Translations under genes and position numbers: made by a program
Part shown: positions 2 to 6,145 of the stretch, in pieces
How positions within the stretch are numbered: the first letter of the stretch is position 1
Layout: each line of letters opens with the position of its first letter
Origin: Eubacteriales Family XIII. Incertae Sedis bacterium
GTDB lineage: Bacteria > Bacillota_A > Clostridia > Peptostreptococcales > Anaerovoracaceae
Assembly: GCA_031280075.1 (NCBI GenBank)
Contig: JAITHG010000251.1
Coordinates: forward strand, 1 to 6,145
Direction: 5' to 3'
DNA length: 6,145 nucleotides
The notes under the pieces: model-generated
Databases searched by the model: none
Told to the model about the DNA's origin: nothing
What the model saw: only the letters and a program-made list of their open reading frames with translations

Positions 2-139
2 AAAGAGGGCATCAACCGCGCGATGGACAGCGCCTCGGAGACAGCCGAAAACATCAAGCAGTCCGTGAAGGACGCGGCACAGGATGCGAAGGACAGCGCC
101 GAAGCAAAGGCGAAGGACGACACGGGGACGAAAGCGTAG
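2..139 (+). CDS. C-terminal fragment of an Ala/Lys/Asp-rich LEA-like helical protein
   Basis: This is the 3' end of a gene cut by the left edge. Reading from base 2 gives 45 residues ending in TAG at 137-139. The peptide is rich in Ala, Lys, Asp and Glu, with no aromatic residues and no predicted fold apart from helix. From about base 35 it can be laid out in 11-residue units (for example VKDAAQDAKDS, followed by a unit starting AEAKAKDD), the rhythm of LEA group 3 or YtxH/apolipoprotein-like amphipathic helices. Proteins of this sort are usually stress-related, membrane- or protein-shielding, and largely disordered until they bind a surface. Here the function is inferred from composition only. 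The stop lies 9 bases before the response regulator start, so co-transcription with the two-component genes is likely. The same 11-residue pattern recurs at the N-terminus of the kinase two genes downstream. The N-terminus, and any signal peptide or membrane segment, are outside the window. Confidence 0.75.
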   Translation, partial: KEGINRAMDSASETAENIKQSVKDAAQDAKDSAEAKAKDDTGTKA

Positions 140-148
140 CGGAAGACC

Positions 149-889
149 ATGCAAGAAAGAATTCTGATAATCGAAGATGACGAGAAGATCGCGCGCATCG
201 TGGATCTCGAGCTCTCCCATGAGGGCTATACGGTCGAAAAGCGCGCGGACGGGCCTGACGGGCTTTCTGCCGCCGAAGGCGAAGACTTCGACCTCATCCT
301 GCTCGACATCATGCTGCCGGGGTTGTCCGGCATCGAGGTGCTGCGCAGGCTGCGAAGATCCAAAGCGACCCCTGTCATCCTCCTGACGGCACGCGACGAG
401 GTGGTGGACAAGGTGCTCGGACTCGACAGCGGGGCAGACGACTACATCACGAAGCCCTTCGCCATCGAAGAGCTGCTGGCTCGCATCCGTGCCTGCCTGC
501 GCAAGCGCGCCTCGGGCGATGCAGGCGCGGCAGACGGTGCCGTCGCGGCGGGGGGTGGGACGGATGCGCTGAGAACTGTTCTGAAAGCAGGCGCGCTGAC
601 GCTCGACACAGGACGGCACGTCGTGCATTATGGGGGCGAGGCTGTCGAGCTGACGCTGAAGGAGTTCGACCTGCTGCGCTGCCTGCTCGAGAACAAGGGC
701 ATGGTCATGACGCGCGACGTGCTGCTCGACCATGTCTGGGGCTATGACTACTACGGTGAATCCAATGCCGTCGACGTATACATCCGATTCCTGCGCAGCA
801 AGATCGACGAGAAGTTTGGCATCCGTCTGATCACGACGGTGCGCGGTGTCGGCTACCGCATAGACGAAGGGGCTGGGGTGGCATCGTGA
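149..889 (+). CDS. OmpR/PhoB-family response regulator (ArlR-like)
   Basis: This is a cytoplasmic DNA-binding regulator of 246 residues, activated by phosphoryl transfer from its partner kinase. The receiver domain spans about residues 3-118. It shows the acidic pair D10/D11, the phospho-acceptor D53 in LLDIMLPG, T80 in LLTAR and K102 in the TKPF motif, so the phosphorylation site is intact. The winged-helix output domain spans about 150-241, with the typical LTLKEFDLL start, the recognition-helix region NAVDVYIRFLRSKID and the wing ending TTVRGVGYRI. Between the domains lies an Ala/Gly-rich linker (about 121-146), longer than usual for the family. The ATG at 149 is preceded by GGAAG at 141-145, a close but usable ribosome site. 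The stop TGA overlaps the kinase start as GTGA, implying translational coupling. Overall it most resembles ArlR/CsrR-type regulators. Target genes cannot be inferred from the window. Confidence 0.95.
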   Translation: MQERILIIEDDEKIARIVDLELSHEGYTVEKRADGPDGLSAAEGEDFDLILLDIMLPGLSGIEVLRRLRRSKATPVILLTARDEVVDKVLGLDSGADDYITKPFAIEELLARIRACLRKRASGDAGAADGAVAAGGGTDALRTVLKAGALTLDTGRHVVHYGGEAVELTLKEFDLLRCLLENKGMVMTRDVLLDHVWGYDYYGESNAVDVYIRFLRSKIDEKFGIRLITTVRGVGYRIDEGAGVAS

Positions 890-2700
890 GCAGGGACTGG
901 GAACGGTATGCGGCGAAGGCTGCTGCCAAAAATACGCGGCACGCGCGGAAGGCGGCAGCGAAAAACGCACGGCATTCCGCAAAATATGCTGCCAAGACGG
1001 AGCGGGATGCGCTGAAGCAGGCATTGCACGATGCGGCAAGGGGTGCCAAACATGCCGCAAAGGAGGCGGCGAAGAGCGCCGAATACGCCGCGAAGGATGC
1101 GGCCAAGAGCGCCAAGTATGCCGCGAGGGAGGCGGCGCGGGAAGCTATGCAGAGCGCCCGCGATGCCGCAGGCGGTTATTGGCGCGCGCAGGACGCAGCG
1201 CAAGCGCAGGGTGATCCCCGGCAGGCGGAGCAGAGCGGTGCCTATGCACAGGGAGCTAGGCAGAACGGTACTTACGCGCAGGGTACGCAGGGTGCAGGGC
1301 AGAACGATGCTTACGCGCAGGGTGCGCAGGGAGCAGGGCAGGACGGTGCCTATGCGCAGGGTGCTGAGCGGAGCGGTGCCTATGCGCAGGGTGCGCAGGG
1401 TGCCAGGCAGGGCGGGGCTTACGCACCCAGAGGCTCGCAGCGCACAGCACAAGGCGATGCTTACGCACAGGGCGCAGGGCACACTGCAAAGACAGCGAAA
1501 AAACTCAATTACACGCGGCTCGCAGCGCGCATCAACGCCCGCGTGCTGCTGCAGCTCGCCCTCGCGTTCATCATAATCGACACGGGGCTGTATGCCCTCT
1601 ATCATTTTGGTTTTCTCTCTTTCGGCGAATTCTGGCTGGGGGACATCCCGTTCGGTCCCTTCGAGACTTTCCTTCTCGTGGCGACCCTGCTCGTCCTCGT
1701 ACAGGTCTTCTTCCTGATCGGGAGCGGGGCATCCGTCGGGGCATCCGTGCGCAGGAACCTCGCCCCTTTGCAAGATTTGCTCTCCGCGACGGAGGCATTC
1801 GCCGATGCGAGCCGTTCGCCCTCGGGGCGCTATTCGCCCGAAGCGCTGAAGGAGCTCTCCCGCGCCTTGGACGCAATCAACGCATCCCATCTGGAAAGCC
1901 GCATCTCCGCCGACGCGATGGCGGAGGAATTGCGCCCGCTCGCCGTCGCAATCAACGAGATGCTCGCGCGCATCGACGAGGCGCACAGCGCACAGAAGCG
2001 TTTTGTGTCCGACGCGTCGCACGAGCTGCGCACGCCCATCGCGGTCATCCAGGGTTATGCGAAGCTGCTGCTTCGTTGGGGCAGCGAAGACCCAGCGACC
2101 CTCCGCGAGTCCCTCGAAGCCATCAAGACGGAAGCGGACGGCATGAAGCAGATGGTCAACCAGCTCCTCTTCCTCGCGCGTGGCGACAATGAGTCGATGC
2201 AGATCGATTGGCAGGCCGTGCAGCTTTCCGGCGTGCTGCGGGAAGTCATGCGGGAGGCACGCGTCATCGCGGAGGAAAACCTCATGCCCGAGGGCAGGGA
2301 AGGGCTCCCGGAACACAGATTCGAGGAGGGGATTGTGGACGGGCTTGTCGTCTATGGCGATGCGGGGCTGCTCAAGCAGCTCGTGCGCATCCTCCTCGAC
2401 AACAGCATCAAGTACTCCGCCGCAGGCGGTGTGATCCGTGTGCGCCTCGCGCCCGACGGCTTCGGCAGGGCGCAGGTCACGGTCAGTGACGAAGGGGCAG
2501 GCATCCCGGAAGACATCCTGCCGCACATCTTCGACCGCTTTGTGCGCGCAGACGAGTCGCGCACGCGGGGTGCAGGCGGCGCGGGGCTCGGGCTCGCCAT
2601 CGCGAAGTGGATCGCCGAGCGCCACGGGGGCTACATCGAGGTGGTCTCATCCGAGGGCATCGGCAGTCGGTTCACAGTCAGCCTCCCACTGATCCAGTAG
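886..2700 (+). CDS. Sensor histidine kinase with N-terminal 11-mer (LEA-like) and YAQG repeat extension
   Basis: This is a membrane sensor kinase of 604 residues, partner of the upstream regulator. In order: 11-residue Ala/Lys helical repeats (11-98), a Tyr-Ala-Gln-Gly repeat region (117-199), TM1 (about 219-241), a very short external loop (about 242-259), TM2 (about 260-281), a HAMP-like segment with an insertion (about 284-368), and HisKA with phospho-acceptor H379 in SHELRTP. The HATPase_c domain follows, with N box N506 (LLDNSIKYS), G1 DEGAGI (535-540), F box FDRFVRAD (549-556) and G2 GAGLGLAI (565-572). All catalytic motifs are present. The start is GTG at 886, overlapping the regulator stop by 4 bases, with GGGGTGG at 875-881 upstream. 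The next in-frame ATG is at codon 88, inside the repeats. ArlS-like kinases normally start just before TM1, so the roughly 215-residue cytoplasmic extension is abnormal. The frame runs unbroken through the repeats into the kinase core, which supports a genuine fusion. The signal sensed is unknown. Confidence 0.93.
   Translation: MSRDWERYAAKAAAKNTRHARKAAAKNARHSAKYAAKTERDALKQALHDAARGAKHAAKEAAKSAEYAAKDAAKSAKYAAREAAREAMQSARDAAGGYWRAQDAAQAQGDPRQAEQSGAYAQGARQNGTYAQGTQGAGQNDAYAQGAQGAGQDGAYAQGAERSGAYAQGAQGARQGGAYAPRGSQRTAQGDAYAQGAGHTAKTAKKLNYTRLAARINARVLLQLALAFIIIDTGLYALYHFGFLSFGEFWLGDIPFGPFETFLLVATLLVLVQVFFLIGSGASVGASVRRNLAPLQDLLSATEAFADASRSPSGRYSPEALKELSRALDAINASHLESRISADAMAEELRPLAVAINEMLARIDEAHSAQKRFVSDASHELRTPIAVIQGYAKLLLRWGSEDPATLRESLEAIKTEADGMKQMVNQLLFLARGDNESMQIDWQAVQLSGVLREVMREARVIAEENLMPEGREGLPEHRFEEGIVDGLVVYGDAGLLKQLVRILLDNSIKYSAAGGVIRVRLAPDGFGRAQVTVSDEGAGIPEDILPHIFDRFVRADESRTRGAGGAGLGLAIAKWIAERHGGYIEVVSSEGIGSRFTVSLPLIQ
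916..1179 (+). repeat. Eight tandem 33-bp units encoding 11-residue Ala/Lys helical repeats
   Basis: Residues 11-98 of the kinase divide exactly into eight 11-residue units with no insertions or deletions between them. The approximate consensus is [K/E]-[Y/H/A]-A-A-[K/R]-[E/D/N]-A-A-[K/R]-S-A. KHAAKEAAKSA (55-65) and KYAAREAAREA (77-87) are the clearest copies; units 1-4 and 8 are more diverged. Ala, Lys and Arg dominate, with an aromatic residue (Tyr/His) at position 2 in most of units 3-7. An 11-residue period fits a helix of three turns per 11 residues, as in LEA group 3 proteins, synucleins and apolipoprotein-like lipid-binding helices. The high positive charge would suit binding to acidic phospholipid or nucleic acid; that role is inferred. 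Confidence 0.88.
1234..1482 (+). repeat. Seven degenerate 30-42 bp units encoding YAQG low-complexity repeats
   Basis: Residues 117-199 of the kinase consist of seven units of 10, 13, 13, 10, 13, 14 and 10 residues, each built on [G/D]-[A/T]-Y-A-Q-G-A plus a Gln/Gly/Ala tail such as QGAGQ. The sixth unit has lost the YAQG core (YAPRG). Several units are nearly identical at DNA level (for example around ggtgcctatgcgcagggtgc), consistent with recent slippage or recombination. The segment is predicted disordered and links the 11-mer helix to TM1. All units keep the reading frame, which supports selection at protein level. Confidence 0.88.
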
Positions 2701-2855: not shown

Positions 2856-4721
2856 TCAACGCACGCGCTGGGTCATCCTGACAGCGCTCCACGCTCCTAC
2901 GAAGCGCTCGGCACCGACGGTCTTGACGGCGCACACACTCACTTGGTAGCGTTTGCCGCGCGCAAGCCCCTTGACGACCGTAGAGGCAACGTTTCCGGGC
3001 ACTGTCCGGACGAGCCACTTGGATGAGCCCCTTGCACGGATGCGCAGGACATAGTTTGTGATCTGTGCGCCCGGGGAGGCACCACTCCAACGGATCCTCG
3101 CTAGGCGCTTGCCTGCCTTTGCCGCCGTTATGTCTATCTGCGGCGGGAGGATGCGGAAGCCCACGCTCGTGCTGCCCCTGTATGCACCCATGCCACTGAC
3201 GACGACCTTTGCATTGCCAATTTCTGTATTGTTCTCATAGGTCACTTTGTAGTCCTTGGCCTCTACGAGTTCCTTGCCGTCCTTTGCCCTCACGAGAGGC
3301 GCAGGCATGATCGGGCTGCCCGTGTATTCCTCGCTCGAAGAACTGAGCGTGACACTCGCATCCGCAACGGATGGGCCTGTAGCCGTGACGGCAGGCTTTG
3401 TCGTCGATGGGCGGGAACTGCTGCCGCCACCACCACCGCCACCGCCGCCTGGCCTATACGTGGTCACATAGAGTTTGCCGTCCACATGTTTCAGCGTATA
3501 ATTGACGGCCGCCTCGCTCGTGAGCGTCGCCTGCGTCTGGAAGGTGATGTCAAACGTGCCCACCGTTTTCGTATTGGGCGCATTGTGCGTGAGGACTGGT
3601 TTCACGGAGAGCGGCGGGTTTGTGGCATGTGCCCCTACGAACCCGTCATAGCGTACGGTCAGCGCCGGGATGGCTTTGTTCGGATAGACGGTCTTGTCCT
3701 CCACGCGGACGGTCACATCCTTTTTGGTGATGTCAAAGCTGATGGGCGGTGTCGTGCCGACATAGATGCTATTGCTGTCTTTGACCTTGACAGTCAGGGT
3801 GTAGCGCCCGGCATCCGTCGGCGCAGCGGGCAGCACCTTGTCGCCCTGCCGCCAGACGAAATCGACGACGCTCTCCGGATTTGGGATGGGCAGCGCAGAG
3901 CCCTCAGGCTCGATATTCACGCGCCCGGCAGCGGCAACGGGCTTGCCGTCATAGACTTTGCCCTGCACGCTGATGCCGCCGATGGACACCACTGCCTTGG
4001 TATTGTTCAGGATCACGCGTACGGCGGCTCCTGAGATGGTGAAGTTCGGGCTGTCGATCTTGACAGGGATATGCCCCGTCGCAGACACCGCCGCTTTCGA
4101 TGCCACGGAGAAGACCAGCTCATTGCCGACGATCGCCGCTTCGGACACGACCGGGTCGCCTGTAATGTTGCCGACCACGTAGCTCAGCGCGCCGTAGTCC
4201 CTTCCGGTGCCGAGGATGGGCAGCAGGCGCCCCAGACCGACGCGGACACCGATCTGCCCCGAGGTGGCGTATACATCGACTGGCACCGCATCCAGGGTAT
4301 CCTTTTCGATGCGCAGGGTTGCCGTCTTTGTGCCCGTAGCGACGAGCGTCCTCGACGGACGGTTGTTCACGGTCGTGTTCCGGAAGATCTCGAGCTGCAC
4401 CTTCACATCGTAGTTGCCGACCTCCGTGAATCCAAAGCCGTCCGCAGCCGGCTTGACTGCCACGTTGCCCTGCATGTAGGTGTACTTCTTTTCGTACTCC
4501 GCCGCGTTGTATGCGCTCCCTTTCACGAGCCCTGCGACGGGCAGGTATTGCTTCGCCCCGTTGTAGGCCGTTGCCACGTCCCCAAAGGCGATGTCGTTGC
4601 TTGCGTCCACCGACGCCTGCGGCGGGTTTGCCGCCGTCGCCCCCATGGGCAGCAGTCCAAAGACCATCAATGCCGAAAGCAGGACGGCAAGCATCCGTTT
4701 CTTCTTGTATTTGTCTCGCAT
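2856..4721 (-). CDS. Secreted multi-domain Ig-like repeat protein (YDG/MBG/FN3-like)
   Basis: The 621-residue product is probably exported by Sec. A basic start (MRDKYKKKR) precedes a hydrophobic core and an A-T-A-A cleavage region near residue 30. Residues 31 to about 243 form a beta-rich region I do not recognise. About 244-333 resembles a YDG domain (KVYDGKPVAA at 255-264). About 334-423 resembles an MBG domain (VNYTLKHVDGKLYVT at its end). A run of nine glycines (425-433) and a Ser/Thr stretch form a flexible hinge. About 457-525 is an Ig-like domain with the YTG...DYKVTYENN pattern common in clostridial surface proteins, and about 526-618 resembles fibronectin type III. No LPXTG, SLH, cell-wall-binding or C-terminal membrane segment is visible, so it may be released, periplasmic or held by partners. 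ATG at 4721 is preferred to the upstream TTG at 4742 because AAGGGGG lies six bases before it. Adhesion or matrix binding is possible but unproven. Confidence 0.88.
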   Translation of the reverse strand: MRDKYKKKRMLAVLLSALMVFGLLPMGATAANPPQASVDASNDIAFGDVATAYNGAKQYLPVAGLVKGSAYNAAEYEKKYTYMQGNVAVKPAADGFGFTEVGNYDVKVQLEIFRNTTVNNRPSRTLVATGTKTATLRIEKDTLDAVPVDVYATSGQIGVRVGLGRLLPILGTGRDYGALSYVVGNITGDPVVSEAAIVGNELVFSVASKAAVSATGHIPVKIDSPNFTISGAAVRVILNNTKAVVSIGGISVQGKVYDGKPVAAAGRVNIEPEGSALPIPNPESVVDFVWRQGDKVLPAAPTDAGRYTLTVKVKDSNSIYVGTTPPISFDITKKDVTVRVEDKTVYPNKAIPALTVRYDGFVGAHATNPPLSVKPVLTHNAPNTKTVGTFDITFQTQATLTSEAAVNYTLKHVDGKLYVTTYRPGGGGGGGGGSSSRPSTTKPAVTATGPSVADASVTLSSSSEEYTGSPIMPAPLVRAKDGKELVEAKDYKVTYENNTEIGNAKVVVSGMGAYRGSTSVGFRILPPQIDITAAKAGKRLARIRWSGASPGAQITNYVLRIRARGSSKWLVRTVPGNVASTVVKGLARGKRYQVSVCAVKTVGAERFVGAWSAVRMTQRVR

Positions 4722-4727
4722 TTTGTT

Positions 4728-4736
4728 CCCCCTTCT
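4728..4736 (-). promoter_or_regulatory. Ribosome binding site of the Ig-like gene
   Basis: On the - strand AGAAGGGGG ends six bases before ATG at 4721. This strong Shine-Dalgarno match decides the start, because the upstream TTG at 4742 has no comparable site and would put extra residues before the basic part of the signal peptide. Confidence 0.75.
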
Positions 4737-4756
4737 GTGCAACCTTCACGCATATC

Positions 4757-5050: not shown

Positions 5051-6145
5051 TCACGCAAGTACGATGCGGACATACTTCTTCTTTCCCCTGCGGATCAAGA
5101 TGCCTTCTTCTCCGAAGTCCTCCGCCCGCAGCGTCATCTTGGGATCCGTCACCTTTTCGCCGTCGATGGTCAGACCGCCCTGCTCGATGGCGCGGAAGCC
5201 CTCGCCGTTGCTTGCGACGAGACCTGATTCGCGGATGAGGTTGACGATGCCGATCCCCTCCGGCGGGAGGCTCTCCTGCTTCAGTCCGTAGGTGGGCACG
5301 TCCTCCATGCTGCCTTCGCCGCCCGGGGCGAACAGGGCGCGGGCAGCCTCGAGCGCCTTGCCTGCTTCTGCCTCGCCGTGCACGAGCTTCGTGACCTCAA
5401 AGGCGAGCGTCTCCTTTGCCCGGTTGATTTCGGAGTCCTTCAGCGCGGCGAGCGCCTCGATCTCGTCCATGGGCAGGAAGGTCAACAGGCGCAGGCAGTT
5501 TGCCACGTCCGCATCCGCGACGTTGCGCCAGTACTGGAAGAACTCGTAGGGTGTGGTCTTCGAGGCATCGAGCCACAGCGCGCCCTTCTGCGTCTTGCCC
5601 ATCTTCTTGCCCTCGCTGGTCTCCAGCAGGGTGAAGGTCATGCCGTAGGCGAGCTCGGATAGCTCGCGGCGGATGAGGTCTGCGCCGCCGAGGATGTTCG
5701 ACCACTGGTCGTCCCCGCCGAACTGCATCTTGCAGCCATAGCGCTTTTTCAGTTCGAGGAAGTCGTAGGACTGCAGCAGCATGTAGTTGAATTCGAGGAA
5801 GCTGAGCCCTGCCTCGAGCCTGTTCTTGTAGCACTCCGCGCGCAGCATGTTGTTGACGGAGAAATGCCGCCCGATGTCGCGGATGAACTCGATGTAGTTG
5901 AGCTCCGTCAGCCAGTCGGCGTTGTTGACGAGCAGCGCGGCATCCTCTCCGAACTCGATGAACTCGCCGAAGAGCCGCTCGAACTTCCTGCCGTTCTCGG
6001 CGATGGTCTCCTTTGTCATGAGCTGGCGCATGTCCGTGCGCCCGGAGGGGTCACCGATCATGGCTGTGCCACCGCCGACGAGGGCGATGGGCCTGTGCCC
6101 GAAGTGCTGCATCCACATCATGATGATGATCTGCATGAAGTGCCC
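5051..6145 (-). CDS. tyrS: Tyrosyl-tRNA synthetase, N-terminus beyond the window
   Basis: This is a class I aminoacyl-tRNA synthetase that charges tRNA-Tyr with tyrosine in the cytoplasm. The visible 364 residues start with GHF, the end of the HIGH motif, so roughly 40 N-terminal residues lie past the right edge. Landmarks in visible numbering are [15 protein letters not shown] (22-36), the substrate-binding YMLLQSYDF (about 121-129), [11 protein letters not shown] (141-151) and the KMSKS-loop equivalent KMGKT (181-185). The C-terminal ~60 residues form an S4 RNA-binding domain ([14 protein letters not shown]). The stop is TGA at 5053-5051 on the - strand. No frameshift or missing catalytic motif is seen. 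Its leader, where a T-box would be expected in Firmicutes, is outside the window. It is followed by its own terminator and has no evident functional link to the other genes. Confidence 0.97.

Follow-up and report, generated by a model that had tools for sequence, protein, structure and literature searches.

An eleven-residue repeat array ahead of the first transmembrane helix of a Family XIII sensor histidine kinase

Why should a sensor histidine kinase carry some 200 residues of Ala-rich, largely repetitive protein in front of its first transmembrane helix (TM1)? The question is raised by a 6,145-nucleotide stretch of DNA, hereafter the window, from a bacterium of Eubacteriales Family XIII Incertae Sedis (assembly GCA_031280075.1, contig JAITHG010000251.1). 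A sequence-only reading of the window saw eight 11-residue helical repeats fused in front of the kinase and took them for a cytoplasmic amphipathic sensor or tether. The features on which the argument rests are the following.

2..139, forward strand: C-terminal 45 codons and stop codon of a probable DUF4342-type membrane protein, its 5' part beyond the window edge
149..889, forward strand: OmpR-type response regulator (Pfam Response_reg E 2.1e-29, Trans_reg_C E 1.3e-26)
886..2700, forward strand: sensor histidine kinase extended at its N terminus (GTG start, Pfam domains)
889..1206, forward strand: predicted unbroken helix, residues 2-107 (AlphaFold2)
916..1179, forward strand: eight 11-residue repeats with no gaps, residues 11-98, net charge +12
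1201..1485, forward strand: array rich in Ala, Gly and Gln that contains seven YA[QP] units, residues 106-200, predicted disordered
1519..1605, forward strand: TM1, about residues 212-240 (hydropathy; AlphaFold2 helix 209-240)
1657..1749, forward strand: TM2, about residues 258-288, preceded by a short external loop (hydropathy; AlphaFold2 helix 258-309)
1846..1977, forward strand: HAMP-like stretch (17 bits, under the Pfam cut-off of 25)
1993..2190, forward strand: HisKA with phospho-acceptor H379 (E 4.9e-20; H379 invariant in 38 sequences)
2356..2691, forward strand: HATPase_c (E 1.3e-29; N506, D535, G537, G565, G567 and G569 invariant in 38 sequences)

Elsewhere in the window, positions 2856-4742 (reverse strand, convergent with the kinase gene) encode a probably exported protein that combines MBG and fn3 domains with a Gly-rich linker, and positions 5051-6145 (reverse strand) a tyrosyl-tRNA synthetase that is incomplete at the window edge. 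A plasmid origin and a viral origin of the extended kinase were both rejected: nucleotides 886-1520 had no match in a plasmid collection, and the protein had no relative among viral contigs.

Behind its extension the kinase is of the HisKA type, with the phospho-acceptor His, the HATPase_c motifs and a transmembrane pair. The sequence-only reading had called its HAMP, HisKA and HATPase parts intact, which stands for the latter two, while the HAMP match is weak. Against the NCBIfam equivalogs, ArlS included, none of the best 25 of 85 matching families reached its cut-off. Homologues of the kinase numbered 4,516 at E ≤0.001 among 7,996 candidates scored, and 120 of them, query included, were listed. 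P0002-P0007 share 61-68% identity with the query across 65-67% of its length and, in their database records, begin just ahead of TM1, near query residue 205; the source of P0007 is named as a Clostridiales Family XIII MAG. When TM-like stretches are assigned by a simple rule on hydropathy, 45 residues or fewer precede the first one in 118 of the 120 listed homologues, some of which, such as P0027, also appear truncated; the remaining two are P0118 (74 residues; an apparent fragment without TM1) and P0001 (211 residues). The extension is absent from every listed homologue of the kinase (120 listed of 4,516, query included), and its carriers amount to one contig (one cluster, with two member sequences). 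Short tails ahead of TM1, many of them basic, are already present in the relatives, so the arm can be seen as the enlargement of an existing feature.

Homologues starting near residue 205 were one of the outcomes that the sequence-only reading had named as speaking against it. P0002-P0007 do start there, but the gene in the window has no start codon at that position, and the starts of these relatives thus indicate that the extension marks a single gene and not a kinase family. The notion of a new sensor-kinase architecture is accordingly only partly supported: as judged from sequence, there is one known carrier with a proposed function, and the nearest listed relatives start near TM1. Genome scans with P0003, a 400-residue kinase of the P0002-P0007 type, gave matches that passed the chosen thresholds in 1 of 391 genomes of the class, 26 of 398 of the phylum, 5 of 60 relatives of genome G001 and 5 of 25 of the order, in overlapping samples of which the class and phylum scans scored at most four candidates per genome. 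The best match in these genomes had 60% identity, and none was as close to P0003 as P0002-P0007 are among themselves.

Searches with the extension itself were equally sparse, and the low complexity of the arm reduces the power of all of them. Residues 1-110, run against proteins of 332-1057 residues (7,996 candidates scored), found only the query and P0121 at E ≤0.001; a 105-residue piece run against proteins of about 58-184 residues (3,657 candidates) found no match at that threshold; and no other kinase came from either search. A copy of the arm was found in none of eight relative genomes, a result that carries no weight in a scan lacking a positive control. The six Pfam matches to the arm lie at E 0.33-6.2. 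Three NCBIfam matches (E 0.0061-0.21), of which the best was the Ag473 lipoprotein model (E 0.0061, scoring 17.3 bits where 100 are required), fall far under their cut-offs and were set aside as reflecting composition. Among PDB entries there is no solved structure of the arm; the matches are helical proteins no better than chance, the best being a designed helical repeat protein (E 0.098).

Is the extension made? Codon 1 of the kinase frame is GTG, not ATG, and this codon (886-888) overlaps the stop codon of the response regulator (887-889), an overlap that favors it as the start. Within the first 230 codons, in-frame ATG, GTG or TTG occurs only at codons 1, 47, 88 and 220. Initiation after the repeats was rejected, as codons 89-219 contain none of the three. 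A start at codon 220 would delete the basic NYTRLAARINAR tail ahead of TM1 that P0002-P0007 keep, with changes, and the extension must then be at least partly made. From these features of the reading frame, we consider translation of the extension likely.

The repeat array is as regular as first described. Its units, in order, are KAAAKNTRHAR, KAAAKNARHSA, KYAAKTERDAL, KQALHDAARGA, KHAAKEAAKSA, EYAAKDAAKSA, KYAAREAAREA and MQSARDAAGGY, and residues 11-98 show 38 identities out of 77 at lag 11 where 14.3 are expected (z 8.3, from 20,000 composition-preserving shuffles). Lags 4, 7, 15, 22 and 26 are likewise elevated, as in the 4-4-3 spacing of a hendecad. The 88 residues include 34 Ala, 13 Lys and 8 Arg, and only 7 large hydrophobic residues. 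On a wheel drawn at 98.18 degrees, the positions are for the most part consistent, with Lys or Arg at 1, 5 and 9, Tyr, His, Gln or Ala at 2, an acidic or polar residue at 6, a small one at 10 and Ala at 3, 4, 7, 8 and 11; in this last sector 30 of 40 residues are Ala. The hydrophobic moment at that angle (0.235 on the Fauchere-Pliska scale, 1.299 on the Kyte-Doolittle scale) is larger, on either scale, than in any of 3,000 shuffled sequences. With the angle set to 100 degrees it drops to 0.086 on the first scale, where shuffles average 0.063, and to 0.635 on the second, where they give 0.257 ± 0.132; this second value is raised yet within the shuffled range (maximum 0.840). The face across 88 residues is thus straightest on an 11/3 helix, and the sequence shows the 11-residue period and, near 98 degrees, the single consistent face of an 11-mer amphipathic helix, its lipid binding being putative. 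The helical wheel, proposed as a check by the sequence-only reading, thus does have a consistent face.

AlphaFold2, run on an alignment of 38 sequences (mean pLDDT 74.9, pTM 0.45), predicts a single helix over residues 2-107, with 10-residue means of pLDDT of 79-91 across residues 1-100 and 63 across 101-110. Because the listed homologues lack the extension, this predicted helix effectively rests on one sequence. If fully helical, it would be about 16 nm long (106 residues x 0.15 nm). Residues 109-202 are predicted to be disordered (pLDDT below 50), and the TM1 helix begins at 209. Residues 11-98 carry a net charge of +12 and residues 201-230 one of +6, which fits a topology with the N terminus inside, and a cytoplasmic arm is very likely. 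That the kinase bears a cytoplasmic amphipathic helix of 11-residue period is in this way supported. The further claim that the arm feeds its signal straight to the kinase finds no support: some 94 predicted-disordered residues separate the helix from TM1, so that in this model the helix is unlikely to push or twist the kinase as a rigid rod, and a tether that alters location or local concentration seems more plausible.

The linker, predicted to be disordered, holds a second array, of YA[QP] units, which the earlier reading had not mentioned. It is coded by 30/39-nt DNA repeats (1245-1424), the spacing being 30 or 39 nt for most copies. Seven-residue pieces around the units give pN/pS of 0.42 and 0.33, in a small sample without a shifted-frame control.

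Taken together, these observations lead us to favor, tentatively, the view that the arm is a docking or retention element added in one lineage. An ordinary OmpR-family sensor kinase would have acquired about 200 residues at its N terminus, forming a cytoplasmic arm that consists of a straight, cationic, alanine-faced 11/3 helix and a flexible Ala/Gly/Gln/Tyr linker to TM1. Stripes of Lys and Arg would lay the helix on the anionic inner leaflet, where it may fold upon contact, and the arm would hold or cluster the kinase near its partners; both the binding partner and the effect on signaling are inferred here. The kinase core would function like that of its relatives, its membrane segment still reading the input, possibly with a DUF4342 partner. 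The target of the arm is probably anionic membrane. Docking is disfavored by the weakness of the Ala face, whose moment is 0.235 when all 88 residues are taken and 0.27 when windows of 33 residues are averaged, as well as by the occurrence of the extension in one contig only and by its low third-position GC.

The closest yardstick is perilipin 4, whose moment of 0.257 is, according to the authors, the smallest of any helix known to attach to lipid surfaces, and which is a poor binder of bilayers, as described in the part of PMC5889406 available to us. The moment of the arm is near this value and its charged fraction is larger, so binding, if any, would be electrostatic and cumulative and not a readout of packing defects. 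The suggestion of a lipid-packing sensor, made from the repeats alone, is accordingly not supported by a face in which 30 of 40 residues are Ala and by a moment of 0.27, close to the 0.257 of a poor bilayer binder (PMC5889406, available part). Should docking be true, a standard sensor kinase would have gained a localization or clustering module by simple growth of DNA repeats before TM1, and the compact alanine-faced 11/3 helix would offer a test case for the weakest helix face that can bind a surface.

The first alternative is that the repeats have accreted and do little or nothing for the cell, duplications of 33 nt and 30/39 nt having lengthened a short basic tail in a place, before TM1, where the added residues were harmless and tolerated. 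We judge this unlikely, while giving it considerable weight. The DNA does contain tandem repeats, of 33-nt period within the array (2.8 copies, 1045-1137) and of 30/39 nt in the linker (1245-1424). Third-position GC is 0.67 in the repeats and 0.61 in the linker against 0.79-0.83 in the remaining kinase, which would fit an array that grew recently and is loosely constrained, and the arm is missing from the listed homologues and from the searches with the extension. Against accretion, the 11-residue phase is maintained across all eight units even though the outer ones are well diverged, and the charge and Ala faces are preserved. Moreover, pN/pS between units is 0.47 (adjacent units) and 0.64 (all pairs) in the kinase frame but 1.04 in frame +1 and 1.15 in frame +2 (all pairs), although this comparison draws on no more than eight short units, whose silent differences are almost saturated (pS about 0.7). 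A relative of the kinase at L056 (4305-6119) carries low-complexity Ala/Glu/Gly and Pro/Asp stretches between its tail and HisKA, from which it appears that repeats also grow elsewhere within the kinase family.

A different kind of partner is suggested by the gene upstream of the regulator. The window holds only its last 45 codons, with the DUF4342 domain falling outside; the encoded tail (2-139) is identical at 16 of 33 positions to the C terminus of the DUF4342 protein at L086 (BLASTP, E 5e-7). Of 19 distinct loci examined in relatives (L085-L103), 18 have a DUF4342 gene directly upstream of the regulator, the exception being L093, where the contig edge falls inside the regulator. These loci are those of the best kinase hits in five genomes of the G001-relative and order scans, in G002 and in 13 of the 26 phylum-scan genomes; of the other 13 in that scan, two had been counted with the preceding six genomes and 11 were left out. 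All four of the relatives' proteins that were scanned match DUF4342 in Pfam. When eight genomes were scanned with the Pfam model, seven gave two DUF4342 matches each (1 of the 14 below the cut-off); the model missed DUF4342 in G002, where phmmer found a copy. The second match lies on a separate contig from the regulator-kinase pair in G001, G394, G397, G399, G400, G637 and G529. Between regulator and kinase, L001 has a small open reading frame (3449-3931) with no Pfam match at E ≤0.01.

In the relatives, the neighboring protein begins with three helices, followed by a low-complexity linker, DUF4342, a single TM helix and, at the C terminus, a further helix. A model of the L056 protein, from a two-sequence alignment (mean pLDDT 61), places the start helices at pLDDT 88-95 and the TM and C-terminal helices at low confidence. 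"UBA-like" is our own label for the three-helix start, which matches no UBA family in Pfam at E ≤0.1. Our literature search found no paper on DUF4342. As a membrane protein that accompanies the regulator-kinase pair so regularly, the DUF4342-type protein is a candidate partner of that pair, and the operon is of broader importance and a more general lead than the arm.

Could the Ala face of the arm then pack on another helix, either that of a second kinase protomer or the C-terminal tail of the DUF4342-type neighbor? An alanine stripe is suited to close helix packing, and the usual neighbor brings a tail of opposite charge, with -2 over 45 residues in the window against +12 for the arm. The tail in the window also fits the class profile of the arm better than shuffles do, at p 0.04 as a whole and p 0.007 for residues 10-41, a range picked afterwards. 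We nevertheless find such pairing improbable. Three tails from relatives show no fit to the profile (p 0.15, 0.32 and 0.58), and homology between arm and tail was rejected, BLASTP aligning only 10 residues with an E of 0.024, as expected by chance. Tail length is ordinary, extending 23 residues beyond the conserved part in the window; it varies, being longer in L087 and L088, whose kinases lack arms, and shorter in others. The low-confidence model, with its one TM helix, would moreover put the tail on the opposite side of the membrane from the N-terminal domain. More speculatively, the arm might fold on the membrane or on an acidic, helical DUF4342 tail and, through its tyrosine-bearing low-complexity linker, set the clustering and hence the signaling state of the kinase, a scheme to which we give little credence. 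Our literature searches found no description of sensing by such an arm in histidine kinases, in agreement with the earlier remark that no described kinase family has this architecture; no close precedent emerged from the sequence or literature searches made.

Still less credible is that the extension goes untranslated or arose from a faulty join in the assembly. Its single carrier contig and its absence from the six nearest relatives, as recorded, speak for this, whereas an open frame of 600 nt, the overlap of start and stop, the lack of any start codon between 88 and 220, the excess of silent changes in frame and a gene order, with regulator upstream and kinase downstream, that matches that of relatives all argue against it. 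Least probable of all is a nucleoid tether, in which the Ala/Lys helix (34 Ala, 13 Lys and 8 Arg among 88 residues, net +12) would bind DNA as linker-histone-like tails do and keep the kinase close to its regulator or to DNA, since DNA binding calls neither for acidic residues recurring at position 6 nor for an ordered Ala face, and no histone-like Pfam family matched up to E 10.

How does the arm that we tentatively regard as a docking element compare with known systems? Among Clostridia HisKA kinases, the nearest, P0002-P0007, have a similar tail motif just before TM1 and no arm; the order DUF4342, regulator, kinase was seen in relatives more distant than these (18 of 19 loci). P0094, a more distant listed homologue, is named ArlS in its source. 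Group 3 LEA proteins are built of Ala/Lys 11-mers, and in this the arm resembles them; a kinship, which the comparison in the sequence-only reading might suggest, finds no backing, as neither LEA_4 nor YtxH matched the arm up to a Pfam E of 10, and the arm has a net charge of +12 over 88 residues. Another fusion of a long Ala-rich 11-mer array to a different domain is found in the PDZ protein P0121, which matches residues 1-110 at E 4.1e-9 and whose long phasin-like array lies near its N terminus. It differs from the arm in its units, which are phasin-like with Thr, Asp and Arg, in an N-terminal hydrophobic segment that suggests export and in having no kinase domain.

The most instructive likeness is to perilipin 4 and alpha-synuclein, which, in the available part of PMC5889406, similarly form an 11/3 helix from 11-residue repeats with few large hydrophobic residues. 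Alpha-synuclein has a moment of 0.30 and a charged fraction of 0.24, against 0.15 for perilipin 4 (PMC5889406). The arm, with a lower moment (0.27) and a larger charged fraction (0.34) than alpha-synuclein, comes near perilipin 4 in its positive charge and in its moment (0.27 against 0.257), the averaging of moments in that part of PMC5889406 differing in detail from ours. It departs from perilipin 4 as described there in its predominantly Ala face, in a charged fraction roughly double that of perilipin 4 (0.34 and 0.15, respectively) and in being fused to a bacterial kinase.
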